From NCBI RefSeq assembly GCF_000204055.1, contig NW_006768815.1, forward strand, positions 1 to 64,000: 64,000 nucleotides of DNA. Reading direction: 5' to 3'. The notes beneath the pieces are model-generated. The model was not told where the DNA came from, did not search any database, and saw nothing but the letters and a program-made list of their open reading frames with translations. Origin of the DNA: Melampsora larici-populina 98AG31. Taxonomy: Eukaryota > Basidiomycota > Pucciniomycetes > Pucciniales > Melampsoraceae. The position numbers and the translations under genes were made by a program. This document shows, piece after piece, positions 1 through 33,367 of this stretch (position 1 is its first letter; each line of letters opens with the position of its first letter).

Positions 1-1069
1 TCCTGAGTTTTGATATTCCATAGCAGTTGTAAGCTGTGAATTGAGGGCGTATCAGGGTCGGTGTGTGTCCAAGCAAGGTGTTGTGCGCGCGTAGGTGTGC
101 AGTAGAAATGAAAAATGATAGTTTAGAATTGGATTTCCCTCAAGAAAAGAAGAGGTCAGAATATCGAACTCACCAGACATGGGATAACCTAACGTGGGTA
201 TACTCACAACAAGCTGCGCCGCAGCCTCCGCAGTCACTGCGTTGCGCAGTCACTGCATCAACATGTAAGTGCACCTCCGGGTGTGCAGAGTTGCCTCTTC
301 ACTCCACATGATGTATACACAAGATCAACTCATGTTCAGTCACAAATCCCACTTCCACTGACGTGTACGATCTTGTCATAACTTCCGGTCCAACACAAAC
401 ATCCTCAGGTATATGACCTAAGGATGTTTTTCACTCATAGCCACCTCAAGGATCAAGGATTGATCCGGGTGCGCATGCACCCAGTACGGGGTGCGCCTCT
501 ATACAATGCACGTATCTTCACCCTCACTACGCACCTCTGCTCGCCGATGGCGAGCTTGCCATGGGACTCTTGTTGGCCACTTGTTCAATATGATGACCAG
601 GCCATCACATCTCTTCCTTGCGCATCAGCACGCGTCTCAAGCAGCCATTGGAATGCTTGTCATTCAGCTTGCGGAGTTTCTTATTGAGAGACCATCAGGC
701 TGCTCGCCGATGGCGAGCAGCCGTCACACATGAGTATGACCAGGGATATCCATATGTTAACATGTGTCATTGACAGACGTTGATACTCAAACGAGTTGTT
801 CAATATTTTGACTTTGCAATGCAGAGGGGCATTTTTTGAGGTGCTCGCCATCGGCGAGCACCCCTTCTCTCGCATACTCAGCATTGTCGATTGTAAGACA
901 TCATGATGGAGCAATCTAAGGCAAGTGGCACAAGTCATCATTGTACATCTCTCAGTCAGTTGACACAAATATAATATTCTCATTTGCAAATCATGAATTC
1001 AATTTGTTCATCTACAATATATATAGGCATTTCTATTTCTCTAGGGCACCACTCAATGTATCCATTGAA
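1..1069. other. Intergenic region downstream of gene A
   Basis: I see no convincing gene. The short open frames overlap one another on both strands and show no recognisable domain. The stretch holds three complete copies of the GCTCGCC hairpin (539-555, 702-718, 843-859). It probably includes the 3' UTR of gene A, whose stop codon lies at 1070. Confidence 0.6.
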
Positions 1070-4000
1070 TTACAACTCCACATCTGGATCCTCGCTATCT
1101 GAAGTACACCCATGACCTCCTCCTCCTCGTCCATCGCCAGGACCCTCCTCACTAGATTCTTCTTCCGAACTTTCTTCATTACCGGGTTCCTCCGTCGCTG
1201 CTTTCGCTTTGTCCGCTGCCATTCGAGTTTCGTTGGTATGATGAAGGGTATGCCGCCCATTCTCGTTGACTTCAGGATACATACTGCCGCCACCATCCAC
1301 CGGATTCACTAGCTTTCCTTCAGTAGGTCCCCATAAAGCTCGGAAGGATTGAGTTGCAGGCCCATCCATCAACCACTTCTCCGAATCTTCTAGCTTGACG
1401 TGCGGTTGCACCAACCCATTTAATCCGCGGCTCAATCCAGGTCTCTGCATTTCCATCATCAAGTCCAAGGTGAAAGCTTGAGCGATATTCGTAGGATCGA
1501 ATTTTCGGCTGAAGTACCCAGTTAGTGCAGGCCAATCAATATCATTCCTGAAGTCTCCGTTTTCGGTGATGAATCGTTTGAGAGCCCGGTGCATCAGAGA
1601 GTCAAGTCGGTTCCATGCTCGGCATCCGAATACGTGCTTCTTGTCTTCGACGTTGCGCCATCGACGTTCATGTAGAATTGCTGATAAGTTGATTAGCAAC
1701 GCTGCATCATGTTGAGTCGTATCACGCGTGGTCGGCCAAACGTGGAAAAAAGAGGCAGTTCCGTAGAGAAAAAATAAGGACATGGCCTGAATGGCATCAC
1801 CTCGAAAGCGTGAAAGGTCGTGATTGATGACTTGTGCTATCTTTCTTTCTTCAGCTTTAGTTTTCGCAACAGTCGTTGACGTGTCTGAGCCTTTGAGCCT
1901 CTTGCTGACATTTCTATGCTTCGTGTTAACGAGTTGTCGAAGACAGGTCTGATCTTTCTGAATCGCCTTGAGTTCAGCGATTTCTTGAGCGTTGTTGCCC
2001 GTCTTCTTCCTTCTCATGTTCTTCGAATCTTCACGATTATAACAATCGCTTTTGTACACCAACATTGTCCCCACGAGCACTAAGAAGAATTTGGCTTGTA
2101 GAGCATTAACACTAGCACTGGCGACTCGGTCCCCTCGGGCATTTCCTTCAGGTTTCATTCTCATACTGATTTGATGATATAACCATCCTACAGTCTGAGA
2201 CATAGGAATGAACTTCTCAGGAATCATAAACTCTCCATCGTTCCTGATGATAATATCGTCATGTTGGGTTTCGTATGATATGAGAGCAAGACTATCGGCT
2301 AAAATGTTGTGTAATATCATGCTGCCATTCTTGATGTCACTTTTGAGTTTAGACACTTCGGTCCACGTCGTAGAATCAGACTTGCGGCAGGACATCGCGT
2401 GAAGTGCGCGGAATACTCCGTTCATATCTTTAGTGAACGGGAACATAGAGGATTCCTCGACCAACTCCCAGTTCAGTGATGTCTCGTCGAAGAAGGGATC
2501 AAGCGCGGACAGTTGCATGAGAAGAGGGGCTAGGTGTACGAAGAATACAAGTCAGTATGCTGTCCTGCGTGCTCGCCTTCGGCGAGCAAAGGCAACACTC
2601 TATGATCACTTACCAGTTTGAATGCGTTTTTCCATCAATGCATGATCATCTACTAGGGATTTGATGTACTCAAGATGAGAAGGGAGGTCTGATTCATCAG
2701 GCTTGTCGTCCAGGGATCGTCGATCGAAGGACCACAATTGGATGATGGAGCAGACGTTCGACGTAAGGGCCTCTCCCCAATTGAAGGCGACGTTGATTAA
2801 CTGATCTCTGAAGTTTCGAATTTCTTGCCCCTCGATAGGTGTCATATCCTTGAGAAGACCTGGGAGAAATGTATAGATCATGTTCGTCAGTATGGCAGAT
2901 TCTGATTGCTCGCCAATGGCGAGCGGTGGTTATTCATCCATGATTACTCAGGCCACGAGACTGTACCGCTCGCCGATGGCGAGCGTTGGACCAATGAATA
3001 GGAGTGAAATGAGATTCATGAGCTGATACGTGGACTTACGCGCTAAGTCAGGTTTTGTTCCCTTGCGGAACATTTCGGGTATGATAACCTTCTTCTGCTC
3101 TTCTCCATCTTCCTCATCGTCGTCTTCGACTGGTTTCTTCTTGCCTTTCTTCTGAGGAGGATGAACCACGAGGCCTTCTGCTTCTTTTGAGGTAGATTCG
3201 GGTCTTTGAGGCATGTCTTCTTCAGGGACTTCCGCCGGGGTTTGAGTCTTGCGTCTCTTGGTGGACTTGATCCCAATGTCGGCTCTTCCTTCTTGGTTAC
3301 ACTCCACTGCCTCCTTCTCCTCGAAGTCCTTAGTGTTCATCCGCTTCCTCGGAGCATCATGAGCTATGTGAGTTTCTCCTTGTTAGTTCTTGTGTTCTTG
3401 ATCTCCAGCTTAATCTTTCACTTACCTGTTGCATCACTGGTGCGATTCTTCCGCTTCATCGAGGAACCTTGTGTTTCAAAAAGAATGAGGTTTAGTCAGT
3501 TCAACCTCCTACATATAACATATTTAGACTGGTCTTACCTGATGCTTGCTTGTCACTTTCTTCAGGTACTGTATCAGCTCCATCACGTTGACTCTTCTTG
3601 ACGTTGGTGGTTTCGACGGTTGGCACATATACTGAGGGAACGAAGATGACTTCGGGGTGTTGACTAGTCAGGGTAACCATCAATTCATGCTCAGCTTCAG
3701 CCATGGTCTTCAGAAGCTCGTCGAGGCTGCGTTGTAGAACATATAGCTGTTTGTCGATGGCACCGTTTTCAGCTTTCTTCTCTAACTTCTCAACTCTGCT
3801 TTTCATTATGTTGTACAATTCGCGGACTACGGTGCCATTGGATTAGCATCATCTCAATGTATATGAATCTACATTTGCTGATCGATTCACTTACCTTCTT
3901 CGAACTCTTCTGTAGCTTGCTGGACCTTGACTGATTGCATGGTCTGCGTGGCGGGCTTCTGCGTGGAATTTTCATTCGACATTCATTTGATGTCAGTGTC

Positions 4001-5773
4001 TCATTCTTTTCAATCATTCTTACTGGATCTCTTGACTTACATCTTCCTCTTTCAATCCTTGGCTCGCGTTCCTCTCGTGTTCAACTTGGGTTTGATCCTG
4101 TCATTTAACCATGGTTAGTAAGTCATTTGTCTGCCTCTCATCATAGGCGTTCAGCCTCGTCAGGAATTCATACTCACCTCCTCTCCACTTTCCATGGTCT
4201 CATCCCGGATGGCTGGTTCCTCTTGCGCCTATAGCATTTCGTGAAGTAACACAAGTGATCAGCTTATGTCATCATGTGCATGACTCTTGAATTGAACTCA
4301 CATGGCCCGCCTGTTCCGTCGAATTCGCAGACCCGTCTCCTTCAGTTGTCGTTGCTGGAGCTAGATCTGGTGTATAGGCCTGTTCGGATGTGACGTAAGT
4401 CTCCTGCTGATCTGCGCTCGCCATTGGCGAGGAGTGCTACTTGAGCGCTGCACACTTACATCTTTTCCTGGTTTAGAGATACCGCTAATACCCTTCTTGT
4501 GAGGTTCGATAGGTGCAAACGTGGTCTGCTAAAGGAGGACTCTGGCTCATCAGTAGCTGTATGTCACAAGTGTAGTGCTCGCCGTTGGCGAGCTGAGGTC
4601 AACTTCAACTAACCTCCTGTCCAGATGAAGAGTCTTCTACAATCCTGCGACTTCGTGTATTGTCCTGTGCATTCTGTACGGAGCGGCGTCAGTTTCTTTC
4701 CTGTGAATCTAGGTTCTTGTACTCTTTGTTGTTCATTGGCTAACTCACTTTTTTGTTTGTTGTACCATTACCCGTAATGGTTTCGACATCCTGCGGTGTA
4801 GGGATGAAACATTGTCAGTCGAAGGCGACGAGTGCTCGCCAATGGCGAGCGTCAATAGATACTGAACATCCTTTTGAGCCTGAGGTGAGTCCGCTGCCAG
4901 CTTCCTTCGCCTATTCGATTCGATGACAGTCAGCCTCTCTTCGTCCCTATGTACGTTTGGAGTTGAGGAAAGAGTTACTCACAAGTACCTTCTTTTTTTT
5001 GGCCTGCTTGTCCGAAATGATGGCGGCCTTGAACGTCTACAAATCATTCTATCATAAACATGAACCCTCATTGATTGGTTCATCCGTGTGAACTCACCTT
5101 GGGGATCTTGCTTGGTTCCGAGGCTTGAACGGGGGTCTTCAGCTTAGGATCAACGATAGCAGGTGCCTGCAAACTTCTCGTCAGTCTTGCCTGGGATTGC
5201 TCGCCGTCGGCGAGCAACTGACTACCGCGGATGGAACTCACCTTGCGTGGGGCCATCAAATCATTCACCGGGGCTGCGGCCTTCTTCGAATCAACGTATC
5301 GTCGTGAGTTCCTTCTGATCATTCAGCATACAGTTTGATGTCTACTTACAGCTCTGGGTGTCGCTGGAACGCTGGGAGCAGGGGTGAATGGAGCTGTGGT
5401 TGATCTGTTACGTTCAGACACCTGGTGATAACCATTTAAATCAGCTTGTTTCATTCATCCAATGCTTATATATTGTTCTTCAAAGCTTACCTCGGTGTCT
5501 TTGGAGCTGGAACCTTGCGATTGACGGTTCTTGGCACTGCTTTTGATCTGGTTAAGTTTCATTCGGATGTTAGCTTGTCGTGATCTTAGTCTTTCATTTG
5601 TTACTTCAATCGTAGCTGCTCGCCATCGGCGAGCAGGCGGATCGATGCATTTGTTCAAACGCTGATCGAACATTGGGTGAGTGGAAGGTTCAACTTGATG
5701 GTTGCCAAGTGATGAGGTGGGAAGTGATGTGATTGGTGTAGACTTCTTGTTGGGAGGTACTTACAGGGTTCAT
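1070..5773 (-). CDS. Gene A: multi-exon protein of unknown function, paralogue of gene B
   Basis: The last exon (1070-2529) encodes about 480 aa of a globular domain I do not recognise, ending in an acidic, glycine-rich tail. Earlier exons that join in frame are 2614-2859, 3040-3363, 3426-3467, 3539-3826, 3895-3955, 4041-4097, 4178-4228, 4302-4379, 4460-4525, 4614-4673 and 4749-4790. More micro-exons lie near 4870-4915, 4985-5040, 5100-5165, 5243-5300, 5350-5410 and 5490-5555. Exon 1 would be a 9-nt coding exon starting with ATG at 5773, followed by GTAAGT. Exons from 4041 to 4790 are 42-78 nt, multiples of three and phase 0. The N-terminal two fifths are charged and low-complexity (K/E/S/T/P-rich, with a lysine-rich nuclear-type patch around 3250); a short helical, possibly coiled-coil stretch lies in 3539-3826. 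Homology to gene B is clear at FNWGE, KHVFG-RAW, FTLDL and GPTEG. No catalytic motif was recognised. Confidence 0.75.
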
Positions 5774-6063
5774 CTTTACTGGTTCTTTTTGGTTTGTTAT
5801 CCGGTATTTCGGGTCGGGTCGGGTCGGGTATTGTCGGGTCGGGGTACGGGCGGGGTGTGAACGGGTTTACGCACGGATCTGGTTTAGAAAATCGAAAAAT
5901 CAAAACCTGGACCTGCCTTTCGATCAAAACACAAAGTCCTTATATAGCCTACATTATCATCACGTTAGGTTTCGTGTGCTGCGCGCAGCAGTCACGTGAT
6001 TACTGCGCCACGTGACTGCTGCGCGCAGCAACTGCGCTTACTAGCTCACTATCGTGAGCTAGT
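5774..6063 (-). promoter_or_regulatory. 5' region of gene A: GGGTC repeat, TATA box, CACGTG palindromes
   Basis: Reading on the minus strand, a TATA-like TATATAA lies at 5940-5946. A (GGGTC)n tract on the plus strand (about 5813-5860) would then fall in the 5' UTR or first exon, just ahead of the ATG at 5773. Its four or more GGG runs could form a G-quadruplex on the template strand. Further upstream is a perfect inverted repeat with 22-bp arms (5977-5998 and 6009-6030, 10-nt spacer), each arm holding CACGTG and GCGCGC. A second palindrome follows with arms ACTAGCTCAC and GTGAGCTAGT (6040-6063). Gene B has the same set of elements in the same order. The promoter role is inferred. Confidence 0.55.
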
Positions 6064-6846
6064 TTGGCGCTGTGCTCGCCGTCGGCGAGCATGGCGTCCA
6101 ATCAGTGATTGCATGTTCTGACGCGGTCTGCTGAGGTTTGGCAGATGGTCACGAGTCTTCGTCATGTGCCGGTCACTTATACTGTGGCTGAGCATGTCTT
6201 GTTACCTCCGGCATGTCCACCGCATCCTTCCCTTTGCTCGCCATCGGCGAGCACACCATTTCGGGCCCATCACTCAGGTAGCCATGGCGCGGATCATCTG
6301 TCCATGACGCCTATATTCGAAAGGGCCTGCTCCCGCCATTGGTGTCCGTGTGGTTTGTGCCTAGTCTCATGATGCACCTGCGATGTGGTGTGCCCTTTCT
6401 GGACCTTATAATTGCCACTTGAACAAGCAGTTCATCACCTGTCTGCTGGTGTACTTATTGATGGTTGGCACACTGTTATTTAACATGTCATGTCCTCTGG
6501 AGTTATATGTGCTGCTCCTTGCAAGCCCTGGGTGTTTGTCCACCATCTCATTGGAATAGCTGCGCAGTGGGCTGCTCCGTGCATGTCTGTGCAGTCAATG
6601 AGTATAAACCGGTATATACTCAAAGGATACTCAGGTTTTACTAGTTTGCGGCGGCAAACAGAGGCAATAGTACTGATTATAGTCAACATTACTACCTTGG
6701 TGAGTAAACAGATACTCACTCCTGCGTCCCTGGGTGAGACAGGTATGGTGAATTTTACTGTGTTCCATGGGCCAAGGTCACAGTGGTCTGTATATGTACT
6801 TAGTATCAGGGGTACTGTGAGGGCCATGGGCAACGGGCAAAAAATA
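6064..6846. other. Non-coding spacer between gene A and the helicase relic
   Basis: Two family-A hairpins (6074-6090, 6236-6252) mark the upstream edge of the gene A block. Beyond 6.26 kb I see no hairpin of either family and no convincing reading frame. The short plus-strand frames have no supporting features. Confidence 0.5.
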
Positions 6847-6915
6847 CGTACGCAAAACCAGGAATTGCGTACGATGCGTGCTGTCCCGGAGGGCTACGGG
6901 GCTCCGCCCCGTAGC
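6847..6915. repeat. Two palindromes at the truncated 3' edge of the helicase relic
   Basis: The first palindrome has arms CGTACGCAA (6847-6855) and TTGCGTACG (6865-6873). The second is a perfect hairpin with a 10-bp stem, GCTACGGGGC (6893-6902) and GCCCCGTAGC (6906-6915), around a 3-nt loop TCC. Helicase homology stops at or within a few bases of the second hairpin, so it probably marks an insertion or recombination boundary. Its layout (GC-rich stem, 3-nt loop) resembles hairpin family A, but the stem sequence differs. Confidence 0.75.
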
Positions 6916-8062
6916 TAGGCATTCCAAGGTTTTACCATCCAAAAGCTTGGCATACTCACCTGGAATGCAGTTGGAGGTATTCATGAGTGCATGAGCAAAT
7001 GACCCAGGCCGGGCTTTGGCCATGGGGTAAAACCATACTGAAGCCTGCGCTTCATCACGACCCGCACGGCCAGCCTCTTGAAATGACTTGTTGACCTCAT
7101 CATCTCTTGGCATACCAACCAAGAACACATGGCGGACGTGCTTGTAGTTAATACCAGCACCAAAACCACTGGTTGCCACCATGACACATTTGTCAGTCGA
7201 TTTCCACAACCCAACTTGTTTGCTTCGCTCGTCTTCAGGTATCCGAGAGTTGTACATTGCCACTGGAATGTCCTTGGCCTTGAGTGCATCTGCCATTTCC
7301 CCGCATTTGGCGATATTCTCGATGAAGATGATACTGCGATCCCTAGCGTGAAGAGAGGCCTGGGTGACTTTGGGTGATATCTTTTCGGCAATTGGTTTGA
7401 TGTCATACATGACAGGCTGTAAGGAGAAATGCAGTTCAGGTTGGGCGGTTACTTCACGTTCTTGCACATAATTCCGTATAGAGAATAGGTCTAAAAGATG
7501 TCGCTCGTGACCAAGTTGCATGGTGGCAGTCATGAAGATGAAAGGACACTTGGTTGCTCACAGTTTGGCCACCCCACTAGCATAGGCTCGGAATCTCTCG
7601 TCATCCTTATAGCAGTGTGCTTCGTCAATGATGATACGGTTGATCTTGTCCAATGTCATTAACTCCTTTCGAAACGCCGGTGTTGCCGCCGCATCAGTGG
7701 TAGTGATCACCACTTTGATGCCTTTTGGAATCCTTTCCCCGCCCTTGTAATGTAAGTGAGGGACACCAAGCCTAGCGAATTCGGTAACTGTTTCCTCAAC
7801 TAATGCAACCAATGGTTGGATGATGACAGTTACACCTTGATTTTCGACCAATGGTGGAAGGGTGTAGGCCAGGGACTTGCCGCTCCCAGTGCGAGCCACT
7901 ATGAGATAGTCTTCACGCCTGTCGAATACGCCCTTGACCCAGCGTGCTTGGAAAGGGGTGCGAAATGTTGCCTTTTTGTCCTGTGTATATTTGCAAAGCA
8001 CCTCCATCCATCATCTTCTCTTGTACTGGTGCCACCATATCCGTTTCGAAAACGCTATCAAT
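6916..8062 (-). pseudogene. RecQ-like helicase core, 3' part of an OrsD-helicase gene (decayed)
   Basis: This exon encodes both halves of a superfamily 2 DNA helicase of RecQ type. Visible motifs are I (ARTGSGKSLAY), Ia (IIQPLVALVEE), II (DEAHC), III (MTATM), V (VATSGFGAGINY) and VI (QEAGRAGRD). It follows the exon ending at 8122 through a GTAAGC..CAG intron. Two lesions break it. Near 8005-8012 a tetranucleotide appears twice in tandem, and the frame before it runs into the helicase frame only if one copy is absent. At 7558-7560 an in-frame TGA separates ASGVAKL from ATKCPFIF-MTAT, a segment that is continuous in the family. The 3' end is cut at 6916-6919 beside a hairpin. It is therefore probably non-functional. 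The same architecture is known from fungal telomere-linked helicases; subtelomeric origin is inference. Confidence 0.85.
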
Positions 8063-8121
8063 CTGGAGACAACATGTCAGTCAATAATAGCAGGAAACTT
8101 TTAGCTAGGGAGTGGGCTTAC

Positions 8122-11100
8122 ACCCCAAAACACATGTGCAGCATTGCTAGTAATTCTGTACTTCAACTCTGAGGTTCGATCTACCTCAAAACCACCTGTT
8201 CCACCGTAACGAAAATTAGCTGTTGAACTGTTGTGGCCTCTCTGGCAGTCAAGCATTGCATTCTGCCCACGTAGGGCATTCTCAACTTTGAAGTGGGCAT
8301 CACTGATAGCCACGGACGCTTGTCGCCATTCACGCACCCCAAGGGAGGCCACACCACCCTCGTGGAAGCGGCGCTTGAGAATACTGGTGAAGTCATCAGT
8401 GTCCAGCAACCCTTTGGTGCTGCTAACCCAGAGGTAAGTTGACATCTGAACAGCACGCTCAGGTTCGCCAAGCACCATTAGACCAAAACTGCAAAAACCG
8501 TTTTTCATCATCAATCAGTGGTCAGGCTCATAGTGCAAAACCAGAAACATGAAACTCACACTGCTACAGGCCGTATAAAACTGTTCCAAAAGTGCCAAAG
8601 CTTGCTATGCGCAGGAGGCAGGAAAGTCATCCGAGGCTTGTTTTTACCCGACATATTTCTTTCCTTGTGATACCAAGAGGTGATAGCAAAAACATTATGT
8701 CGCACAAACAAACTACGTGGTGCTACTCGAGTGTTGATCAACAAGGTTCCACTTTCTTCTGTACCTCGGATGGGCTGACCGGATGCCACATGATACAAGA
8801 AGTAAAATCGCTCCATCATCCTATCAACCTTCTTTAACCAACTCATCCAAGCAGCATCGTTCCAGATAGACATGTCAGTGGCGGTAATGTCTGTGTCGAG
8901 TTTGTCAGACCATGCCTTGTTGAATAATCCATGCAGATCATTTTTGGTAGCCCATTCTTTGAGCAGGTGTAGAGAATACTTCTTGTGAGTCATGTCGGAG
9001 TTGGTGAGGTAGTTTGCCCCAGGTCTTGTATCGTCTGGCCGATCACAGTATAAAGCTAGGTCAAACTCAGGAAGCTTGCATCCCTTGACGATATCGTGGA
9101 AGTCGACTTCGGCCATCTTGTCTTGCAGCTTGATACAAGAGCGAACACCAGAAATGGTGATTGTTTTGTTGTTGATCTGCAGGGTCTCTTGATGGATGTC
9201 AGCCCAGTGAGTTGAATCAGGCATGGTTTCTGACATGTGCACCGAAGTGGCCAGGTGCATCAGCTGACGTAGGATGTTAAAAGGGGCAGATGCACCCTTG
9301 TACAAAAACTTGAACTTTCGAAAGTCGTCCTTCCCCGGAGAGTCAGGGTCCTCGTCAGGATTGAATGCAGGTTGTTCCGCAGCTTGCTGAAGAAACTGTT
9401 CTGCAAAGGCAAGCCGGACCCCATACTGAATAGCCGCTATTTGACGTGTGAAGTCGTCTGGCTGGCCATATGATTCATCCTTCTTCAACAAGGAGCGCGC
9501 CACAAATTGACAGGCCGGAAGCCAGTATTGACAGTCGGCAGCACTGCAGTACATTTGGAATAATGAGCATAGCAAGGCTGAGACTTGTGAGCAAATGGGA
9601 TTGTCCAAAGTTGCAGGAGCACGTTCTTCATCCTCGGCAGCTGAGTCGGCAGGGAGGACTGCACTGACAGAATGATGTAGCGCCCTTAGTTGATTTTTTT
9701 GAACGGTGTATAGGCGGGTGTTGGTGTCAGTTGGTCGAAGTGTCTCGTCAATCAGATAACACATAAAGCGCGCTATAGTTGTTGCATATTTTGTGACAGT
9801 GGACATCTCCTGCAGAGGCATCAATCCTTTGTTGTCCTCCACATCACTGAGAACAAATTGCTCATGTGAGTAAGTTTGCAAGATATAAACTGATCAACTG
9901 AGGCTTACCTAGTCTCCGCTGTGCAGTGTCTCTTCAGAAGCTGGCCGGTTTTGTGAAGCCGTTTCATTGTTGCATTGATCCACAGACTGATGTAAGGTGC
10001 CATTGCTAGTACATACTTATCTGTGTCTGAGGGGATCATGAGGTCCTTGATTGTATGACCACTTTCAACGAGTCCACTGATGTAATCGTGGATACCGGAA
10101 ACATACAACCAGTTGGCCATTTCTTTGACATTTGTTGGATCGGGAACGAGTTGAGAGTCTGCAACGTGTTGTTTCAGTTTCTCTAGCAGACGGTCCACCG
10201 TGTCAGAATGCTGTGGGGCCTCTTCGTGGTCGACCTCCATGGTGTCCACGGATTGGTTTACGAGGTGTGGACGCCGGATGTAAGACAGAACAGGGAAGAA
10301 ATGAGTACGATTATGGCTGTACAAGGTCTGACATTTGTTGTCATGAGTGTGCTGTGATGGAGAGATGCCTGGAAAAGGAAACCACCAGATGAGTTGATGA
10401 ACATACCACTGGACCAAGTGAACTGACCAGGATGATCAACACTGAAGTGATTCTTAACAGTTTTTTCACAGGGCCAACACCGGTCGCACAGGTCACATCG
10501 GATACCGTCGTAGATGATCAGTGCCTCAAGAGGCTCGCAGGGCTTTCCTTCTATGTAGTCCAAAGGTAAGGGGCCTTGATTAACCTCTTCCACATAGCTG
10601 CTCAAGTCTGCCAAGACCTCAGATCTCTTCAACGACATTGTTCCGATATGTTTGCCCACATGAGACGAAATTTCGGTTGGGGGGATACCCTTGTGGCATT
10701 TGACGCATATGAGAATATGGCAGCGCTTGTTCCACACCAGGCCATACTTCAATAGAGTGTCGTCACCTGCAAGAGGACATCAGTGTGTTTCGATGGCCCA
10801 CAGAGATATGGCTTACATTGAATCTCCAATCCCTCCGGCACCACTGTATTGAGAGATTCGACCGCGGACACAGGTGTAACGTCCTGAACCTCATTATACT
10901 TGCAAGTCTTGACGTGCTTTATCATGTACCTCGCATTCTGATGATTGTATTTGCAACTACCCAAAGGACACCAAAACTTCTCATCATTCTTACGAGTCAC
11001 CTTTAGTGATTCTTGATGCATAGTCGTCACAGAGACATCTTTTTGATGCATGATCCTACGATGTTCAGTGAGCTGAGAGGTTTCTTTGAAAGTGACCTCA

Positions 11101-11171
11101 CAAGCCACACAGCTGTGGACAGCTACTGATTGTGCTACATTGGCCACATCCACTGTGTCTGTAACATCCAT
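8122..11171 (-). pseudogene. N-terminal part of the OrsD-helicase gene: C2H2 fingers, OrsD domain, central region
   Basis: Five exons join in frame: 10817-11171, 10407-10766, 9909-10368, 8560-9846 and 8122-8488. The first opens with ATG at 11171 and has a C2H2 finger (C-x2-C-x12-H-x4-H, about residues 20-42) and a second Cys/His cluster ending HVKTC. The second encodes an OrsD (DUF3505)-like zinc-binding domain, with ICVKC, a spaced H-x3-H, and RCDLCDRC followed by H-x4-H. The central 550 or so residues (exons 8560-9846 and 8122-8488) correspond to the conserved but uncharacterised middle of these proteins, including EWRQASVAISDAHF and GHNSSTANFRYG. No lesion is seen in these exons, so the gene may have died recently through its 3' half. 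OrsD with a RecQ helicase is an established fungal combination. Confidence 0.8.
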
Positions 11172-12887
11172 GGCACTGCTCTTCTGGAAAAGCCCCCAAC
11201 ATGTCAGAATCCGAGCACACAGCAGGACCGCCGAAAATCCATTTCGGCGGCCTCAAGGTAATTTAAATGAACCCACTGTATTAACCCAAGATCAGTTGAG
11301 CTTGATGCCAAGGAAATGATTGTCAGGTGCACAATTAGTGTACAGTCAAACCTTGATCTATGCAACACACTTGTGCAATCAGTGTAGCTATCAGAAGAGG
11401 GGCAGGGCCGCCGGAAAAGCTTTTCGGCGGCCCGACAAATGTCACAACAACGTCAGCTGTCAGATGAGCAAGTGTCACGGAAATAGAAGTCACTCACAAG
11501 GCTGAGCGCTCTGGATGTAGTGTCCAGATGTCACAGGTCTGTGACAGGGGGTATGACAGGTGAGTGAAAGACAAGAGACAGGCCCGTGACAGACTTGTCA
11601 AGAATATTCAAGAAGAGGGGGCAAAAGGACCCTCATGTATTTAAGATAACGGGAGAAAACATTTATCACAACTCCTGGGGGCAACAACCGGCAAATCTCG
11701 GGACCAGGCCAAGTTGTGGGTGCTGCGGATCACGTGATCCGCAGGCGCTGCGGCCGCAGCAGCAAGTCAAAATGAAGAAGTTTGGTATTCACTGAATGTG
11801 GCCGCACCTTTACAAAGTTGACACATTTGTCTTGGGGTTCAAATGATGAGGTACACCCTGACAGCAAATTAATCTCACCCACATGTGGTTGTATAAGAAT
11901 TTGATCCAATAGGAGTATGTAATGGGATAATGTGAAATATTCCAGTGAAATGTGATCAGAGGTGACACATGACGTGACATATTTATCATCAGAGCTCAAG
12001 ATGCACAACAGCAGCATAGTCAATAAAATCATACTGGATAACCTGTATACTCACATGAATGATCCTGATCTTTCTTCACCAGGCCGCCGGAAAAGGAATC
12101 CGGCGGCCATGCAGTTTGACCACCTCCATCATTGTATCATAGCTCTGAATACACAACGATGGAGAACCCAAGAAAGATGATAATGTGAAGTGAGATGGGT
12201 GTGAGTGATGGATTGATGAGCAGAAGTAATCAGACAGTACATTGCAGTGGAGGTCGGACACATTATTGGGCCACTAACCACACCCATCTCAGCTATGTAT
12301 ATGAGCACAATCAACAACATGACTAAGTTGAGCGGCCTAGGCCGCTTGGAAAAGTCTATCAGCCTTCACTGGATGCAGAGATACAATTCATCATGAATTA
12401 CAGGGATTATGAAAGGAATCCGTCACCGCCGGAAAAAAGAAATGGCGGCCAGCCAATAGTCTGAACATTGAAAAGCCAAAGAAGCAATGTGCCATCAGCA
12501 TTGCATTCTCTTCACACGGCAGGGAACTGGAAACAGTGGACACAGTATGGGCCAGGTACTAATACCCATACACAAATAGCAACAGTCTCTTCATTGAGAA
12601 AAGAAAAAGAGCATGGACCGCCAAAAAACAAAGAAGGCGGCCTCTCAGACACTGAAGAAACATAAACATGACAAAAACCCCAACTGGAAACAGTGGACAC
12701 AGTATGGGCCAGGTACTAATACCCATACACAAATAGCAACAGTCTCTTCATTGAGAAAAGAAAAAGAGCATGGACCGCCGAAAAACAAAAAAGGCGGCCT
12801 CTCAGACACTGAAGAAACATAAACATGTCAAAATTGGAGGAACAAATCATTGAGCATACAACATGAAGAGCTAATGAAACTCGAGCT
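11172..12887. other. Intergenic region between helicase 5' end and gene B stop
   Basis: No gene is recognised. The stretch carries family-B hairpins at 11226-11253, 11405-11433, 12082-12108, 12426-12450, 12615-12642 and 12772-12799, and a loopless relative AGCGGCCTAGGCCGCT at 12331-12346. Two adjacent perfect palindromes, TGCGGATCACGTGATCCGCA (11724-11743) and GCTGCGGCCGCAGC (11747-11760), lie about 560 bp upstream of the helicase ATG and again contain CACGTG. Confidence 0.7.
12525..12833. repeat. 157-bp tandem duplication carrying a family-B hairpin
   Basis: Copy 1 starts at 12525 and copy 2 at 12682. By eye they match at every base up to the hairpin and again after it until the copies diverge at about 12672/12828. 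The only two differences inside the matched stretch lie in the loops of the hairpins at 12615-12642 and 12772-12799. Confidence 0.9.
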
Positions 12888-15800
12888 CTACTCCTCTTCC
12901 TGTTCACTTTCTTCCTCACCATCACCCACAGATTTTTCAGATCCTCCATCATCATCATCGAGTACCTCTTGGGGTCCAGGTGCATTTGAGCCTGACTGCT
13001 CAGCAGGAGGACCTCTCATAAAGCCACCTCCAGGTCCCAAATTTACATCAACAGCTTGAGTGTTGCGCTTGACCGCCTTAGGCGGTCCTTCAGTCGGACC
13101 AAAGATGCGGCGGAATGATTCTGAATGAGGGGCATATGGATCCCAATCCTGCTTGGTCTTGCTCTTGATGTCAACTTCGTTCACCACCAGACCATTGATA
13201 CCTCTACTACATTTAGGCGCACCAAATTCAGTAAATAAGTCTAAGGTAAAAAGCTTAGCTATAACAGGAAAATCAAATTCTTGAGTAAAGATTGAAGTCA
13301 TTTGAGGCCACCTGATATCTGTAGCAAATTTGTGACCATTCATGAACTTTCGTAAAACACAATAAACATGATTGTCAAGTCTGGCCCATGCTCTATCTCC
13401 AAACACATGCTTTCTTGGGGGTTTAGCTTTACCCTTTTGATCCATGAACATAGTTGATAACATGATTAATCTCACAGCCTCATGCATGTTTTGATCTTTG
13501 AACCTTGTCCATACGTGAATTAATCCTGAGGTGCCGAATGTGAGGAATAGGGCTAGAGATTGGAGTGCTTCTTTTCGAAGTAGTGAGAGATCGAGGCTTA
13601 CTTCTTTCGTGCTGACTTGTAATTGACCATCATTTTGAATAAGTTCAGTGGAGGCTGCTGGAGGGGCTGTAATCTTCTTAGATGTCTTCGACTTCTTCAT
13701 CAAAATAATTTTGTTCTTGACATTAGCTCTGACTAATTGATTTAAGCAAGTTAATTCCGATGTTTTCTTCTTGTAATCAGCTAATTCCTCCCCAGACATG
13801 CCTCTCTGTTCAGCTAAAACACATTCTGCATTGTACATATGAGACTCATACACCATCATGATACCTAGTAAAACTAAGAAATAACGTCGTTGTAAGGCAG
13901 CCAAGTCCCGCTTAGAAGTCTTGATCTTTCTATCGGATTCCTCAGGATCCGTGTTCATGACTATTTGCTGATAAATCCACCCGCAAGCTTGAGAGAATGG
14001 TACGAATTCTTCAGGTACTGCTAAATCCCCTTCGACTTCTATTTCAATATTGTCATGAATAGTGGAAGATGAAATATGTTGTAAACCTTGATTGTAAATA
14101 GTACGAATTGAAGTGTAACCGTCCCTGATTTGCTTGAGGAGCGTAGGTTCGTCAGTCCAGTCAGTAGATGTGTCAAATCTACAACACATGCCATGTAGAG
14201 CGCGGAAAAGCCCGTTGGTCTTGTCCCAGACGTAGTTTTTGGACTTCGAGATAAGATCCCACTTCAGGAGTTCAGGCGCAAAGTACGGATCTTGAGAAGA
14301 GACTTGCATAAGCCTAGGAGCTAAGGTTCAATCAATGGTCAGTGATCTGGAAGGAAATATCAGAATATATATACGGAAACACTCACCACCTTTGAGATGC
14401 CAGAGGAACTCATCATCTTCTCCAAAGGACTTCATCATCAATATATGAGGCTCTAGATCCTCGAATGTGGGCTTGCCGTGTTCAGTTGCAGAATCATAGC
14501 TCCATCTACATAACAGGAATTTGACAGGCTGACTGAGTGTTTCACCCCAGTTGAATGAGTTGTTGGTGATCTTCTTTTCCATCCTTTCTATAAACTCAGC
14601 TTCCACTTGAGTAATTGATGTCGTGATTTCTACAAATAAGCAAGGACCATTGATCAGTATGATGCGCGGCACGTAATTAGCACAAAGGATGAGTAAGAAA
14701 CAGTTAAAGATAGAGAATAATGACAGATGTGATGCCGCTGTCAATTGTATTAGGCGGTCACTTTCTTAATAATGATATATCAATGAAGGGAGGACCGCCG
14801 GAATAGAAAAAAGGCGGCCACGCTCTCAGCTCATAGCAGATGAGTCACAAATAATGCTGTGCCAGAGATAACATGCTCAGGTTCGGATGCGGTCCGGTGT
14901 GAATGTAGGATAGGTAATATGAATGAAAGCAGCTGCCGGAATTGAAAAAAGGCGGCCAACCAACGTAACCAATGTCCTTGATAGAAATCACAGGAAAATG
15001 ATATAGGTGCCGCCGGAAAGAGAAAAAGGCGGCCGATATGAAGGAGGATACAGATTGAATGCAAAGCTCACCTGTGATGTCGACATTCTTCCTCGCGTAG
15101 ATGCAGAATTTGCTTTCAGGCATCTTATAAACACTAGGTTTCTTGGGCTTTTCCCCAGTACCACTTTTCTTCGCCTTCTTGATAGCCTTTGCTTCTACAA
15201 CCTCCTCCTTTTTGCTGGTAGACTGAGCTAGCTTAGGATCATCCGCTTCAGTAACGAATTCGGAACTCTTAGGGTCTTGTCGAGGTTTCTTGGCAGGGCG
15301 CTTCTTCTCATTGTCGTCTGATGAATCTTCTCCTTCTTCCGCTTCCAAGTCAAGGAACATGCTGGGATTCACTGTGGTGGCAACAGCTGCAAAAAAGAAC
15401 CAGATGTTAGTTCCAATCAATGATCAATGAAAGGGTGGTCAACATTACATTTAGCCTTCCCCATTGGTACTTTACGCTTCGTGGCCACGTTTTGACCACG
15501 TTTCGGAGTAGGATCAGGTACCACGATTAAGGCAGAGGTGATTTGAATGTCGGGGTCATTTTTGGAAATGAGGCGGTCCAGCTCTCGTCCTTTAGTGTCC
15601 AAAGAAAATTTAACCCTAGCCAGAGATCCAGTCAAATCTTCTACCTCTCCTTCAATACCTTGCTTGTCTTCATCGACACCTTCTTCCTTCATGGCAGTTT
15701 TGAGACGATGGTAAGTTCTGGCCACTAAAAGACCTTTTATCAGTCATGACACCTTCATTTGAGTCCAATCAGATGACTTACTCTTCGCATATTGAGCGCG

Positions 15801-17130
15801 TTTGAGCTCTATGAGTTGGTCTCGAGTCAGGCTACCCTCGTCAACTTGGGATTCTCCCTGAGATATCAAGTATCAGCATAAGATACAAAGAAACTCAAGA
15901 CGCAATTACTTACTCGAGTTGCATCAGTGGAGTCATCCTTCTTGAAATGAAGATCCTTCAAGGCGCCGCCTCCTTCCACCATGATGCTGTCCAAAAACTG
16001 CATTGCCTGTGTGTCAAATTCAAGTGACTAAACATGAACTTGAGGCTCACTTACAGCATTGAGCTCCGTGGTCTTCTCTTTTGTGGATGGTTGAGCCTGA
16101 ATTGTCAAAGCAATACATGTTGAGTTATCTTTCAATGAATGTTGTCAAAGAGAAGTACTCACGTCCTTTTCGACAGAGTCCTTGGCAGCCCGTGGTTTAG
16201 GTCCTTCGACAGCAGGACTCAACTTGTATAAGAATAGGATTAGTCAGTGCGAGTTGATACAACTCTGATAATGTCTGTACATACCTTTTCCGCTGCTTCT
16301 TCTACAGGGGGCGCTGACGTGCTGCGTTCAGCCTCTCATGAAGTGGAGTCATCAACCTGATGATTCAATAAGAGATTAGTCAGTCATTATTGCTGAATTA
16401 GATTTCATCCGAACTGTGATCATGTACTCACCTGTTTGTTGTTTGCTCCACCTAACACACTTGGGTCTATGTGTTGAGACTCCGTCAGCGCCAACTCTGT
16501 AGCCTGATGGTTTGATTCGAGAGGAATAAGAGTGAGGAAGGTCAGCCTCAGATTGTATAGATAAGAGGTTTAGGCCGCCGAATTATGTTTTTGGCGGCCT
16601 CCAACGTCACTACTTACCTCAGGTCTGATGGTTGGTTCCGAAAGGGATTCGATGGGTGAATTACCTGCCTGCATGATTGACGAGCTGTTGGTAAAGTGAT
16701 TAAACATACACATAAGGTCAGCTGTCTATTAGCACGTGTTAATATGAGTTTGAATGTGATTGAGGCCGCCGGAATTCGGAATCGGCGGCCATGGAATGTA
16801 TGAGGGCTTACTTATGTTTGTTTTTGGAAGTTTGATGAGTTCGGATTGGTTTGGATGTTTGGCTGAACAGATGTAATAAAGAAAATCAATTCCAAGTCAG
16901 TGACCGCCGGAAAATGAAAACGGCGGTAGTGAATTCTTCAAGAAGTAATGGATTAAGTAACTTGATTGAGGGTATGAACGTCTTGAGGTTTGGTGGATGA
17001 TGATGCAGTGAATGGTGAGGTGGGAATTGGAGTGAAGTGAGGATTTCGAAATGAAAGACAAGATGCCTGGAGGACCAGAGGAAGAGTACTCACAGGGCAC
17101 GGGGCTCGGGTCGGGTCGGGTCGGGTACGG
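12888..17130 (-). CDS. Gene B: multi-exon protein of unknown function, paralogue of gene A
   Basis: The last exon (12888-14320) encodes about 470 aa colinear with the gene A C-terminal domain, ending in an acidic tail. It shares FNWGE, KHVFG-RAW, FTLDL, SRG-NGLV and FGPTEG with gene A. The exons before it, 14387-14629, 15072-15386 and 15449-15724, join in frame, with introns at the same places as in gene A. The intron that splits gene A between 3467 and 3539 is absent here. Further coding micro-exons are visible around 15785-15865 and 15915-16010 and probably continue to the GTGAGT donor near 17094. I see no ATG matching the gene A start, so the true start is unsettled. The N-terminal region is again charged, with a lysine/acid-rich tract (15130-15350). 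The intron at 14630-15071 contains three family-B hairpins. Function is not recognised; an intact-looking C-terminal domain suggests selection was recent. Confidence 0.72.
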
Positions 17131-17300
17131 TACACGGGTCGGATTTGAAAAATACTAGCAAGGATGACTAGGGGTTGGTCAAGACCAGGTTGACCTGAAT
17201 TTATAGTCGAAATTGGAGTCACTAGGTTAGGGCTAGAATGTGAGTATCACTATTGTGGTTCCCCTGCTGCGCAGCTGCGGCTGCGCACGTGAGCTAGGGA
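17104..17300 (-). promoter_or_regulatory. 5' region of gene B: GGGTC repeat, TATA box, CACGTG element
   Basis: On the minus strand a TATAAAT lies at 17199-17205. A GGGTC tract on the plus strand (about 17107-17130) lies just upstream of the first visible splice donor. About 140 bp further upstream is a GC-rich palindromic stretch (about 17265-17296) with GCTGCGCAGC, CACGTG (17286-17291) and GTGAGCTAG. The order and spacing match gene A. Regulatory function is inferred from this conservation. Confidence 0.5.
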
Positions 17301-17649
17301 GCATAGCTGTGACACGGGTCCGGACCCGGTCCCGCAGGCAATACCGGTTCCGGGTTGTCCTGCGTCTTCATTTTCTGTGCTTGAATGTAGCGGCCGCCGG
17401 AAATGCAAAACGGCGGCCATTGCTGTGTTTTGCTGATTCAAGGTATGGTTAAATACCCATTGGGCCGCCGGAAATTGATTTCCGGCGGCCCATCCCTTCT
17501 GAGCCTTGGCTATCCTTGTGGAATTCAGCTATTCCATGTGTCACCCACTTCCTGACCTACAGTTTGGGTGATTGTGACCTCTTTCTCAACCTGAAGAGTA
17601 AGTTGTTGCTTCTTTGAGAGTATTGTGGGTCAATCTCCAGCTGACATTG

Positions 17650-20600
17650 CATCAGTAATTTGTTGAAGGGTTATTGAGGGTTCTATACAATTATGCACTT
17701 CAATAAACAAGCAGTTCGAGGATGTGGTATTGGGTAACTTGGAATCACGAGGTGAGGGATACAGCAAGGCACAGCTGGCCGTTTTATTGAATGCTTCACA
17801 AGCAGTACAATATGTTGAAATTGCAGACTATAAGACATGAAGTATAATCGTACTTCATGTAGATGAGGCATTTGTCAGGGAAGGTTCTACAATTCACATA
17901 AGAGAAGATGACCCACACGTACCAAGGCATATGAGTTTGGACTTGACAGCAGGTGATTTGATACAAGCGCTGGAAATACAATTCTATTGAGGTGAATTCT
18001 GAAATTGATGAGGAAGGTGATGTATTCTATGTCATGATTTGCTTTGGTTCAAGAAAGTGTATTTCATGCAACTGGCCATGCATTAGCATACTAGTTGATA
18101 TATCGTTGATTATTAATGTAGATTGCCTTTTGTCATTCAGTTCTTGCAAGGCTAAACAATCCAGAGTGAGGTGTGTAATATGTTGCAGTCATTATGAATT
18201 TGATATACACATAGGGTATATCAGATGTGCAGGGATGAGCTCGCCCCCAATAAACCAATGAATGGGTATATACATTACACATATCAGTACTTGTTCACTT
18301 GCCTTGCAATTGAGTGAGGGGGTGAGCTCTTAAGTTACAAATACATAATGTGTAGTTGTGTTGTGTAGGTGTTGTGATGTGTGATGCAATGTGGAAATAC
18401 ATTATGTACTTTTGGTGTAATTATTCAGAATGCCAAGGTGACGTATTGCCACAATGAAGGATGCCGCATGAGGACATTGTTGGTTTGATTGCTTATAATA
18501 CTGCAATTTGTTCATCTCCTGTCTCATCAATATATGCAAATCATATGGTTTTAGCTTGTCTTGTATTTCCCTGACAGTTGTCCAAGTGAATGTGTTGCAG
18601 TTGAGTATCATGTATAGGGGTAATGTGTGGGTGGTTTTGTGTGGGTGGTTTTGTGTAAAACATACAAATGTAATAATTGACTATTATTTTGTTGTTTCTA
18701 AACGATAATACAACAATCCAAGGAATTGTTGATCCTTTCTTGTTTATTTCTGTTGAATTGTATAATAAATTGTGAATATATTATTGTTATAATTATCAAG
18801 CAGTCATTTATTTTTTGATTTCAGATGGATGGATAAACCCTGGGCTTGTTCTCATTGTATGATTTTCATTCAGAGAATCCATATCAACCTTTTTTGTAGT
18901 GGTGCTTTGTAGGCGTAGGTAAAACGATTTATATATCAATGGATACGGGGATCATATGTATTGGCCATTATTATGCCATAATGGCCAAACCCTAGATTTT
19001 ATTCCTTGCAAAGGAATAAAGTAACTATTTTTGGGTGTGATTTTACAAACCCAGTAGTGATATGACAGGTGTTTCCCTGCGCAATCAAGTATTAGGGGTT
19101 TGTTAACTTTGTAGAGGTGATGAGTGGGTGATTTGATGTATAATGCCATTACTACAAATATGAAGCTTTTGGGGTATTTGTTGGTTAAATTAGAATACCT
19201 TTGTGATTTAACATTTTGTTGAATGAAGCCACACAACTTACATGTTGTTTCATTTTCATCAATCCATTTATTGGATGTATTATGTTATGAATGTCAACTG
19301 TGTGATAGTTATGTTATTCATATTATAGTATATGCTAATAAGATCTTTGTAACATTATACTTATGACTGCATTAGCATTAGTCATATATATACAGATGTT
19401 AGTTTTGTTAGTTGGATTGGGTTATTTTCTTTACCTTTCCAATATTGTCTAACATTTCCATTGAGGTAAGTTGACTAAATGCAATGTCGACCTTTCCAAT
19501 ATTGTCTAACATTTCTATTCAGTCGTGAGATCCTTCTGATCAAATTGTTTTAATTTCCCTAAAATTTAAACCTATGAATATGTGCATTAGGTCCTTTTGT
19601 GGTCAGTAGTGATTGGTGGGAGGTAGGATGTATAATACAATTGATGTAGGAACTATATCAAATAAATTCATGTTCTATAATTCAAAATAAGAAAGCCACT
19701 GGGTTATTTCAAACCCCAAACCACATGAGGCCCTTGTTGTTGTCATTTCTTACCAAATGACAGTTTACTTTGCTTCTATCTTACCATAAATTGTCAATTA
19801 TACATTGTACTTCAGTAATTTTATGTGTGATAAAATTTTCAAAGAAAGTACTTGTCAAATATTCTTCCGAATGATGGTGGCTGGGCTACATTTATACAGG
19901 TATATAGTGTGCCTGTATAAATTGTTTGGTGGGGGAGCAAGTCCACAAGTGCACATTTGGACTCGTTTTCCCTGCCCCAGCCCAAAAAAATATGTAGCAG
20001 CAGGTATGTACGTGTACATGATCCTTTGAGTACCGTAAACGATCATGTGAGAGTGGAGTATATGTGTAATGATGTATAAGGCAGATACTGTGGAGGCCAT
20101 ATCAATTAAACTAATGTGACAATGAAGACAAAAACCATAATTGTCTTTGGGTACGGTGTATTCAATCATATCGTGTGTTCAATCCTAAGGCCAATATTGA
20201 AATTTGAATTTTTTGCTAATTGTCGTTGAAATAATGAATAAATTATCATTATTTCCATTCATTTATTTTGATCCATACGATACGATTTAAGGACTGCAGG
20301 GGTTGTGACTCTGGGTCGTGTAGCCCACTTGATGTGACATTCAAAGGGCCAGTTCTAATCAAATCATGGAATGAATATGACTTGGTTATTTAGAAACACT
20401 AATGTGACATGGTGATTCATTGGGCAAAACTGGAGGGCTTACTGTTCAATTTATGATATTTATTATATTAGGTAAATGCACAAATGTAATTTAAATTCCC
20501 TTGTTGGTTTAAACCCGGTGTTTTACTAGTCAAAAGTTCATGGAACATTTCATGTAATGTGGGTGTTATTTGTGTGCAGTAGCTCCTTGTCTCATTGCCT

Positions 20601-24269: not shown

Positions 24270-24860
24270 GCTTGGTGGATGAGATAGTTTGATAGTGTAG
24301 CTCAGCGCCCTACGCACTGGCGAGTCCAGGATTGACATGTGTTAGGTGGTTGTGACGGCCAAGTAGGCTGGAATCCAAGTGAAATATAATTACATGTGTA
24401 GGGGTGAAACCTGGATATTAGCATATGGAGGAAGATGCAGCTAGTTACACCTGTTTATAAGCATATTTCAATGTCTGCAAGATTGGAGGTCCGGCGGGGG
24501 TTTTGTCCCAAAGGAGGTTAAAGCATTGGCTGCAATGCTGGAGTGGGAAGACCTTTTCGTGCGGCCGCCGAAAACCAAAAACGGCGGCCTCATGGATACT
24601 GTGATTCTTGATGAATGACGGTGACCACTGGATGGGCCGCCATTTCAGATTGTAGGCGGCCTTGGCCTAGTTTCTTGCCGCTGCTGAAGGACACCAAGAA
24701 GCAATTGTGGTGGTGTTGGGTCATTCCTTCGAGGCAGGCACCTTTCAGGGGCTTTGGCAGTGTGACGCCCAAAAGTGTCCACTTGCACCAAAGTGTACAC
24801 TCGATAGCTAGCACCCACCCGCCGCTCCCAGGGGGCGGTGGGCAGGGCCCGAGTGCTAGG
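24270..24860. repeat. Array-end segment, copy 1
   Basis: This roughly 590-bp segment matches 31040-31650 in order. Both have a GC-containing stretch, a phrase TGGATATTA-CATAT, a phrase TTTATAAGCATATT, family-B hairpins (here 24563-24589 and 24634-24661), an AGGGGCT phrase, two GTGTAC-containing boxes (one GTGTACACTCG at 24793-24803), a CCGCC/GGGCGG palindrome, and the end GTGCTAGG. It closes the first T-rich array. Confidence 0.75.
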
Positions 24861-31039: not shown

Positions 31040-31650
31040 GTTTTGTGTGTAGCCAGCTTTGCGGATGACATGGTTTGTCGTGTAATGCGGCGTGCTACGC
31101 GCTAGCCAAACAGGAGGTGGTACGTGAGGTGTCTACCCTTTGTGACAACCATGTGCCGGAACCAAGGTTGAATGTTGCAGATGTGTAGATAGAGCAATCT
31201 GGATATTAACATATTTGTACATCTGAGACTGTTTGTACCCCTTTATAAGCATATTACAGTGAGGTAAGGATTTGCCCTGCAGGGGGTCTTTGTCCAGGAG
31301 GCAGGATTCCCGCTGCACAGAGGAGCTTCAGGAAAATGGCCAATGTGAATGGCCGCCGGAATTCAAAAATGGCGGCCCAATGAAACATGCCTTTCTTGGT
31401 CCCTATGTGTTCACGTCATTTGGGCTGCCTTTTTCAATTTTAGGCGGCCTTGCCTGGCTCCTTTGTGCTGCTGGAGGCCGCCAAAATGCATTTTCGGCGG
31501 CCATTGGCCTTTTTTTTGGGCCCATTGCGCAAAAGCGTACACCTTTTTAGGGGCTCCGGGCCCCGGGACGGCCAAAAGTGTACGCTCCCGCCAAAAAGCG
31601 TACACTCGGTACCATCCCCCCGCCCTCCGGGCGGGGGGGCGGGTGCTAGG
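31040..31650. repeat. Array-end segment, copy 2, truncating a Gypsy element
   Basis: This is homologous to 24270-24860 and carries three family-B hairpins (31351-31377, 31422-31449, 31476-31502). It also has paired boxes around 31575-31610 (AAAAGTGTACGCT, then GCGTACACTCG), a CCCCGCCC/GGGCGGGG palindrome, and the terminal GTGCTAGG at 31643-31650. The next base belongs to the integrase coding sequence of the Gypsy element, so this is a real junction: the segment end is fused to a broken retrotransposon. Confidence 0.8.
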
Positions 31651-33360: not shown

Positions 33361-33367
33361 TCTACCG

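Follow-up and report, generated by a model that had tools for sequence, protein, structure and literature searches.

Lineage-specific palindromic dyads in the introns and flanks of a Melampsora gene family: candidate sites for a dimeric DNA-binding protein

We analyzed the first 64,000 nucleotides (the window) of contig NW_006768815.1 (C51, 726 kb) from the assembly GCF_000204055.1 of the fungus Melampsora larici-populina 98AG31, which comprises 98.3 Mb in 243 contigs. The beginning of the window holds two copies of a gene without an assigned function, gene A and gene B, a RecQ-type helicase region, and short palindromic dyads within and around both gene copies (Table 1). The gene A model, spliced from 5773 to 1070, has no internal stop; one acceptor, at 3980, was set by hand and is non-canonical. 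Two protein searches, both requiring common five-residue words and the second scoring the best 7,994 candidates, returned 10 and 18 relatives, of which the named ones belong to Melampsora americana, plus one to M. larici-populina. Residues 336-829 of this last protein, P0010, match contig C236 of the assembly at 96-100%, and its initial portion at 54-82%, where the tblastn alignment crosses introns. At 1e-3, Pfam has no match for the C-terminal open reading frame (ORF) of gene A in the window; with thresholds up to 1, five proteins drawn from the 22 of the family give a single match (Hemerythrin, 0.11), and PDB sequences do not match the family alignment. These comparisons revealed no HUH tyrosine transposase or other transposase domain, although a remote homologue may have escaped them.

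Thirteen dyads of the form GCTCGCC-N3-GGCGAGC accompany gene A. Counting matches to the pattern GCTCGCCNNNGGCGAGC with up to three mismatches tolerated gave 13 between 539 and 6252 (12 exact; the copy at 4416 carries a single change), where shuffled sequence would give 0.35. The initial annotation had described them as hairpins confined to the introns and flanks of this gene, with one change in 182 stem positions and seven loop forms, and our recount agrees on each point: eight copies lie inside the gene, in seven of its 18 introns, none falls within the 3,168 exon bases of the spliced model, and the remaining five are found in the flanks. By simple arithmetic (1,536 intron bases out of 4,704), the chance that eight randomly placed copies would all be intronic is ~1e-4. 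Allowing four substitutions over positions 1-20000 adds three matches, each with four substitutions, so partly decayed relics were not overlooked there. Genome-wide, the exact pattern occurs at 13 places, 12 in the gene A unit and one on contig C22, ~19 kb from the contig end; the reversed-pattern control gave 0. A genome-wide spread unrelated to the gene family, which the initial annotation had named as grounds for refuting its proposal, was searched for and not seen.

The arms are far more constrained than the middle, as the initial annotation had proposed, but the middle is not free, since 12 of 13 copies read RWY. CpG dinucleotides within the arms are intact in 26 of 26 cases, whereas those at the spacer edge are present in 12 of 26 and lacking in 14 (Fisher 1.1e-5); calling these 14 lost presumes an ancestral GTC/GAC middle. 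We read all the middles except TTC, six of the seven forms, as products of CpG decay from one such middle, which suggests that the copies are old and that their arms were kept. Identity between the flanks of the dyads is at the level of chance (24-26%), so each unit extends over at most ~19 bp, and gene conversion was set aside as the homogenizing process for this reason. No compensated arm change is present among the thirteen copies, which argues that the sequence, rather than pairing, is preserved.

Table 1. Genes, dyads and dyad modules in the window
Feature	Position	Strand	Remarks
Gene A	1070..5773	-	hand-made model: 19 exons, 18 introns, 1,055 codons
Dyad A1	539..555		downstream flank of gene A
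Dyad A2	702..718		downstream flank of gene A; arms reach 11 bp
Dyad A3	843..859		downstream flank of gene A
Dyad A4	2571..2587		gene A intron 2530-2613
Dyad A5	2908..2924		gene A intron 2860-3039
Dyad A6	2968..2984		gene A intron 2860-3039
Dyad A7	4416..4432		gene A intron 4404-4459; sole copy with an altered arm base
Dyad A8	4577..4593		gene A intron 4529-4613
Dyad A9	4834..4850		gene A intron 4791-4862
Dyad A10	5199..5215		gene A intron 5167-5241
Dyad A11	5618..5634		gene A first intron, 5548-5764
Dyad A12	6074..6090		upstream flank of gene A
Dyad A13	6236..6252		upstream flank of gene A
RecQ-type helicase region	6778..11252	-	ORFs with Helicase_C, DEAD and OrsD (1.8e-10) matches; single gene by inference
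Gene B, second gene-A-type copy	12888..17200	-	C-terminal ORF 12888-14327, 39% identity; upper end approximate
Dyad family B, GGCCGCC-N13-GGCGGCC	11226..17490		15 copies, <=3 substitutions; starts 11226, 11406, 12082, 12424, 12616, 12773, 14733, 14793, 14931, 15008, 16573, 16764, 16902, 17392, 17463 (N14)
Two B-type dyads	24563..24661		precede GCGTAC...GCTAGG block; no gene A adjoining
Three B-type dyads (31351, 31423, 31476)	31351..31502		precede GCGTAC...GCTAGG-type block

A genome-wide search added 17 matches to gene A itself, including some that are fragments of a single copy; they are located on contigs C25, C15 (several), C236, C225, C173, C59, C229 and C177, and at 13083-14327 of C51. 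Most are on small contigs or no more than some tens of kb away from a contig end; one C15 match is at 109 kb. Telomere repeats (TTAGGG) were not found at the four contig ends sampled, so a subtelomeric, chromosome-end position of the gene A units is one that we infer. We built a midpoint-rooted tree from the C-terminal regions of 15 copies, and all 15 loci carry dyads of the form YCGCC-spacer-GGCGR with lineage-specific outer letters. The gene B dyads (GGCCGCC-N13, 15 copies and five more at 24.5 and 31.4 kb) thus differ from those of gene A (GCTCGCC-N3), although the two genes are neighbors 12 kb apart. The copies on C25, C236 and C173 bear GTTCAAATTCTCGCY-N3, those on C225 and at 44 kb of C15 have arms around TATCGCC-N3, and C59 and C229 share YGTCGCC-N14. 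The C15 copies at 1, 6, 16, 24 and 29 kb are associated with CTCGCC-N14 (at 6 and 16 kb only with one or two substitutions, and with two copies each at 1 and 6 kb), and the copy at 109 kb with GTCGCA-N13. In the tree the six N3 carriers group together (94/95, just below the star awarded by the program), as do the five C15 copies from 1-29 kb (100/99) and the C59 and C229 genes (100/100); the deep order, including the N13 genes, is weakly supported. Site flavor and spacing therefore track the gene lineage and not the chromosomal position.

The two half-sites are held in a fixed helical register, with spacers of 3 or 14 bp, or 13 in family B. We searched the whole genome for three half-sites (CTCGCC, GTCGCC and ATCGCC) facing their mirror copies across any gap of 3-17 bp, with region limits taken from the earlier gene A matches and, for C22, from its first match; figures for CTCGCC refer to 50 of 55 sites that were listed. 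Within the gene A regions and the C22 cluster, all 59 listed sites have a spacer of 3 or 14, while the 69 outside are scattered. The CTCGCC sites inside number 28 (20 N3 and eight N14, two of the 28 coming from C22), and the 22 outside spread over eleven spacers, with N14 once and N3 never (Fisher 3e-13). For GTCGCC (44 sites), all 20 inside are N14, and the 24 outside include one N3, no N14 and three N13; for ATCGCC (34 sites), all 11 inside are N3, and the 23 outside include three N3, two N14 and one N13. The same confinement is seen by contig. All 12 ATTCTCGC-N5 sites lie on gene A contigs, and all 20 GTCGCC-N14 sites on contigs that carry either a copy of gene A or a piece of one (eight on C59, nine on C229 and three on C177, the last ~16 kb from the gene A fragment there). 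One of seven TTATCGC-N5 sites is an exception, being situated on C14 away from any gene A match. Several arrays are regular, with steps of ~54, 60, 79, 91 and 100 bp. Three paralogues have dyads of two arm types, spaced mostly at 79-bp steps, in an apparently shared intron (L048:5603-6015, L045:4119-4234, L047:3807-3990).

Agreement between site code and gene lineage is expected if a protein reading the sites co-evolves with them, and equally if intron sites are simply inherited together with their gene. The introns themselves argue against passive inheritance, because the dyads are conserved above their background. By tblastn coordinates, the apparent counterpart of gene A intron 2860-3039 also bears dyads on C25, C236, C173 and C15 at 44 kb. 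In the intron common to C25, C236 and C173, two dyads are 86-92% identical between paralogues and the other columns 48-52%, with dyad columns marked on the C236 row of an intron so diverged that it aligns poorly. The dyads thus outlast the surrounding intron. Arm CpGs are also largely intact in other clusters: 19 of 20 on C25, 7 of 10 on C236, 7 of 8 on C225, 16 of 20 on C173 and 22 of 24 on C15 at 44 kb. The lowest values come from two GCTYGCC-N3 clusters, on C22 (6 of 14) and C123 (0 of 20; ten of 11 copies scored, that at 3108 omitted), for which neither the genome-wide search nor tblastn with five queries over 3-8 kb there found gene A; decay is therefore worst in the two clusters that lack the gene. 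The initial annotation had regarded stems as variable as loops in other copies as evidence against its proposal, and this is borne out in part, by the changed arms of the C22 and C123 clusters. Every arm CpG loss outside the gene A set of C51 is TG or CA. According to PMC4352252, Melampsora is one of three genomes in which the C-to-T signature of transposons was limited to CpG, although its frequency was low (10-20%). Since all the losses match this bias, compensatory change was set aside as the explanation for C22 and C123.

We consider it an even chance that the dyads are two-fold sites in duplex DNA for a dimeric protein that co-evolves with, and is perhaps encoded by, the gene A family. 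Each hairpin would then consist of a half-site, YCGCC with its lineage-specific outer letters, and a mirror copy 3 or 13-14 bp away; about one helical turn separates the two spacings, and two subunits would therefore face the same side of the DNA in both. The putative dimer would most simply be the product of gene A itself, or else of its unit, reading the sites of its own lineage, and its specificity would shift as the lineages diverge. Such reading may single out the unit to be silenced, to regulate itself or to be copied from one chromosome end to another. RecQ helicase paralogues are present on five further gene A contigs (two on C15, and one each on C59, C173, C236 and C225) and could be considered as partners instead. 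On C59, however, eight exact N14 sites at 561-565 kb adjoin gene A (565 kb), away from RecQ (586 kb), which favors gene A; on C15, a RecQ match lies ~1 kb away from the sites at 10139 and 10229, which points the other way. A bolder version, which we put forward tentatively as something short of likely, is a self-marking family: the protein of each lineage would read a private palindromic code in its own introns and flanks, and the unit with its telomere-linked helicase would be recognized as self, which would lead to its silencing or to its copying among chromosome ends. If true, the family would be comparable in its logic to the bacterial RAYT/REP systems, but in a eukaryotic nucleus, with code and reader diverging together. 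The dyads may also explain how gene units at chromosome ends stay distinct despite a common neighborhood, and they provide about eight site flavors matched to gene lineages in a single genome, a natural series for the joint change of reader and site.

Several observations weigh against a dimer-binding role. The gene A proteins examined yielded no DNA-binding domain, and an AlphaFold model of the family (10 sequences) had a predicted local distance difference test (pLDDT) score of 39.6, which makes it unusable. Dyads without a gene A match on or near them exist in the C22 and C123 clusters and in the modules on C3 and at 24 and 31 kb of the window. One dyad at 13071-13087, GACCGCC-TTA-GGCGGTC, combines B-like arms with A-like spacing and lies within the coding ORF of gene B. 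A spacer of 3 or 14 also occurs in 7 of the 69 sites outside the regions, one outside ATCGCC site (N5) is ~170 bp from the C3 module, and the limits of the regions were fixed after the earlier matches were known. Total counts in the wide-gap searches stay below those of reversed-pattern controls (55 against 139 for CTCGCC, 44 against 59 for GTCGCC, 34 against 77 for ATCGCC), and the case therefore stands on spacer and place being restricted together. In the long-armed families, moreover, the two arms of a single copy covary: 539 of 615 cells are paired, against a mean of 503 and a maximum of 529 in 5,000 within-locus shuffles, although relatedness of the copies and the entry rule of at least 8 of 12 pairs inflate the figure (41 copies kept of 44 collected, after removal of three chance matches). 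Plain dimer binding does not require such covariation, which leaves room for an element that pairs or copies its arms.

The covariation, which includes A-T to T-A pairs, speaks for structural hairpins maintained by pairing, in pre-mRNA or as extruded DNA, in line with the initial annotation's proposal, an explanation that we regard as unlikely overall. In the N14 class, inner pairs pooled over loci also exceed shuffles (80 against 55), and four of five test strands, one of the four being an idealized copy, fold clearly better than shuffled sequence. By locus, C229 shows the excess (37 against 28.7; 36 of 5,000 shuffles reach 37), and C59 alone is uncoupled (28 against 27). Pairs next to the arms are mismatched in 3 of 15 C59 copies, and many shuffles fold at least as well as one of these three (z -1.27). 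The A/T-rich middle of family B is unpaired (27 paired cells against 37.8 in shuffles), so that pairing is not a general rule; the spacers are fixed at 3 or 13-14, copies are also placed outside the gene, and the thirteen gene A copies lack any compensated change despite their decayed spacers. Where C22 and C123 have C-to-T changes on both arms, each is a CpG loss, a known bias of the species. If the palindromes were neutral, made perfect by template switching from arm to arm and multiplied through local duplication, the arm coupling and the regular tandem steps would be accounted for as well. This origin predicts doubly changed arms, which the gene A copies of C51 do not have, and leaves the confinement, the fixed spacers and the conservation of dyads above their introns unexplained; we consider it improbable.

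It is rather doubtful that the dyads are a mobile palindromic element of the REP/RAYT kind, which the gene A product would disperse around the gene encoding it. One palindrome family per gene lineage, unrelated flanks around each 17-19 bp unit of the gene A set and, on C22 and C123, clusters that lack gene A would all be in keeping with mobility. Against it, no empty site or target duplication was shown, although no search was aimed at element ends; dispersal over the 98 Mb is absent, no transposase domain was found in the proteins, and the decayed spacers indicate that the gene A copies of C51 are old. The regular steps suggest tandem duplication instead. Sites of one general host factor, with outer letters drifting by lineage, would explain why most families share the core CGCC...GGCG. 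Outer letters, however, are near-uniform within a unit and different in neighbors 12 kb apart, and none of the 22 listed outside CTCGCC sites has the N3 spacing, so that a host factor appears very improbable.

Among known systems, bacterial REP/BIME palindromes of 20-40 bp are dispersed over the genome and served by RAYT proteins, HUH tyrosine transposases. The resemblance lies in the palindrome family that each gene lineage has beside it as its own, and in outer arms that are kept around a variable middle; the Melampsora dyads differ in being eukaryotic and intronic, in having two spacer classes and in the lack of a detectable HUH or transposase domain, and their distribution is limited to the gene units plus a few clusters near contig ends. 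DNA transposons carry subterminal transposase-binding repeats, which are likewise short sites clustered around a gene of matching specificity, but here the sites run through the introns of the entire gene. Mitochondrial double-hairpin elements are short GC-rich palindromes in introns and spacers; the dyads belong to a nuclear-type assembly and are bound to one gene family. Introner-like elements are intronic and repeated as well, whereas here a site of 17-39 bp recurs within otherwise unlike introns and also in flanks. Positions 1-18000 of the window gave 0 Rfam matches at the gathering threshold and thus no described structured RNA family. In line with the initial annotation, which knew of no such element in eukaryotic nuclei, literature searches, judged by title and abstract opening (most subscription papers and all bioRxiv preprints being outside this survey), brought up neither such sites in Melampsora nor such a gene family. 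Passages of PMC10532341 describe subtelomeric units of Ustilago, UTASa with RecQ and UTASb with OrsD. The window likewise combines RecQ helicase and OrsD domains, probably in one gene, in a unit repeated near contig ends, as telomere-linked helicases do; gene A and the dyads are not mentioned for Ustilago in those passages (PMC10532341). The biology of these helicases thereby gains an associated gene family that has a strong cis signature and is so far known from Melampsora alone.

The helicase region (6700-11200) contains no repeated-arm family of at least three copies. Between 18000 and 64000, control slices with two mismatches yield chance families of three to five copies, none of the four listed per slice having more than three G/C in six, and exact 6-mer arms with at least three G/C form no family of at least three copies among those listed. 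The exact GGCCGCC-N13 dyad occurs 20 times in the genome (nine on C51, four on C177, three on C3, two each on C123 and C173; control 0), the C3 module being 6 kb from a contig end. At several places, two or three dyads are followed by a GCGTAC-like repeat block closed by a GC-rich stretch ending in GCTAGG (TAGCTAGG at two of them). Such stretches are found at 6893-6915, 24770-24860 and 31530-31650 of the window, at L044:6196-6218, and in L051 and L053. They recall Helitron 3' ends, in which a hairpin is followed by CTRR. Short interstitial telomere-like repeats (CTAACCCTAA, TTAGGGTTAG) are located near dyad clusters at L001:505 (C22) and at 23886 of the window.

Other repeats accompany the gene family. 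The upstream flank of gene A holds a perfect inverted repeat of 21 bp around 10 central bases (GCTGCGCGCAGCAGTCACGTG..., 5978-6029), which falls outside the dyad family. CGGGT-rich runs (GGGTCGGGT) are present shortly upstream of the start in four paralogues (5811-5850 and 17107-17130 of the window, L044:4670-4710, L047:6548-6585), and an extra palindrome around CTGCGGCGCAGT is found downstream of three (L045:1780-1805, L047:1094-1117, L046:1492-1510). Farther into the window, Gypsy-type retrotransposon stretches occupy 31818-38316 and 48511-52088; both encode RNase H and integrase, with a protease in the former and a reverse transcriptase in the latter.

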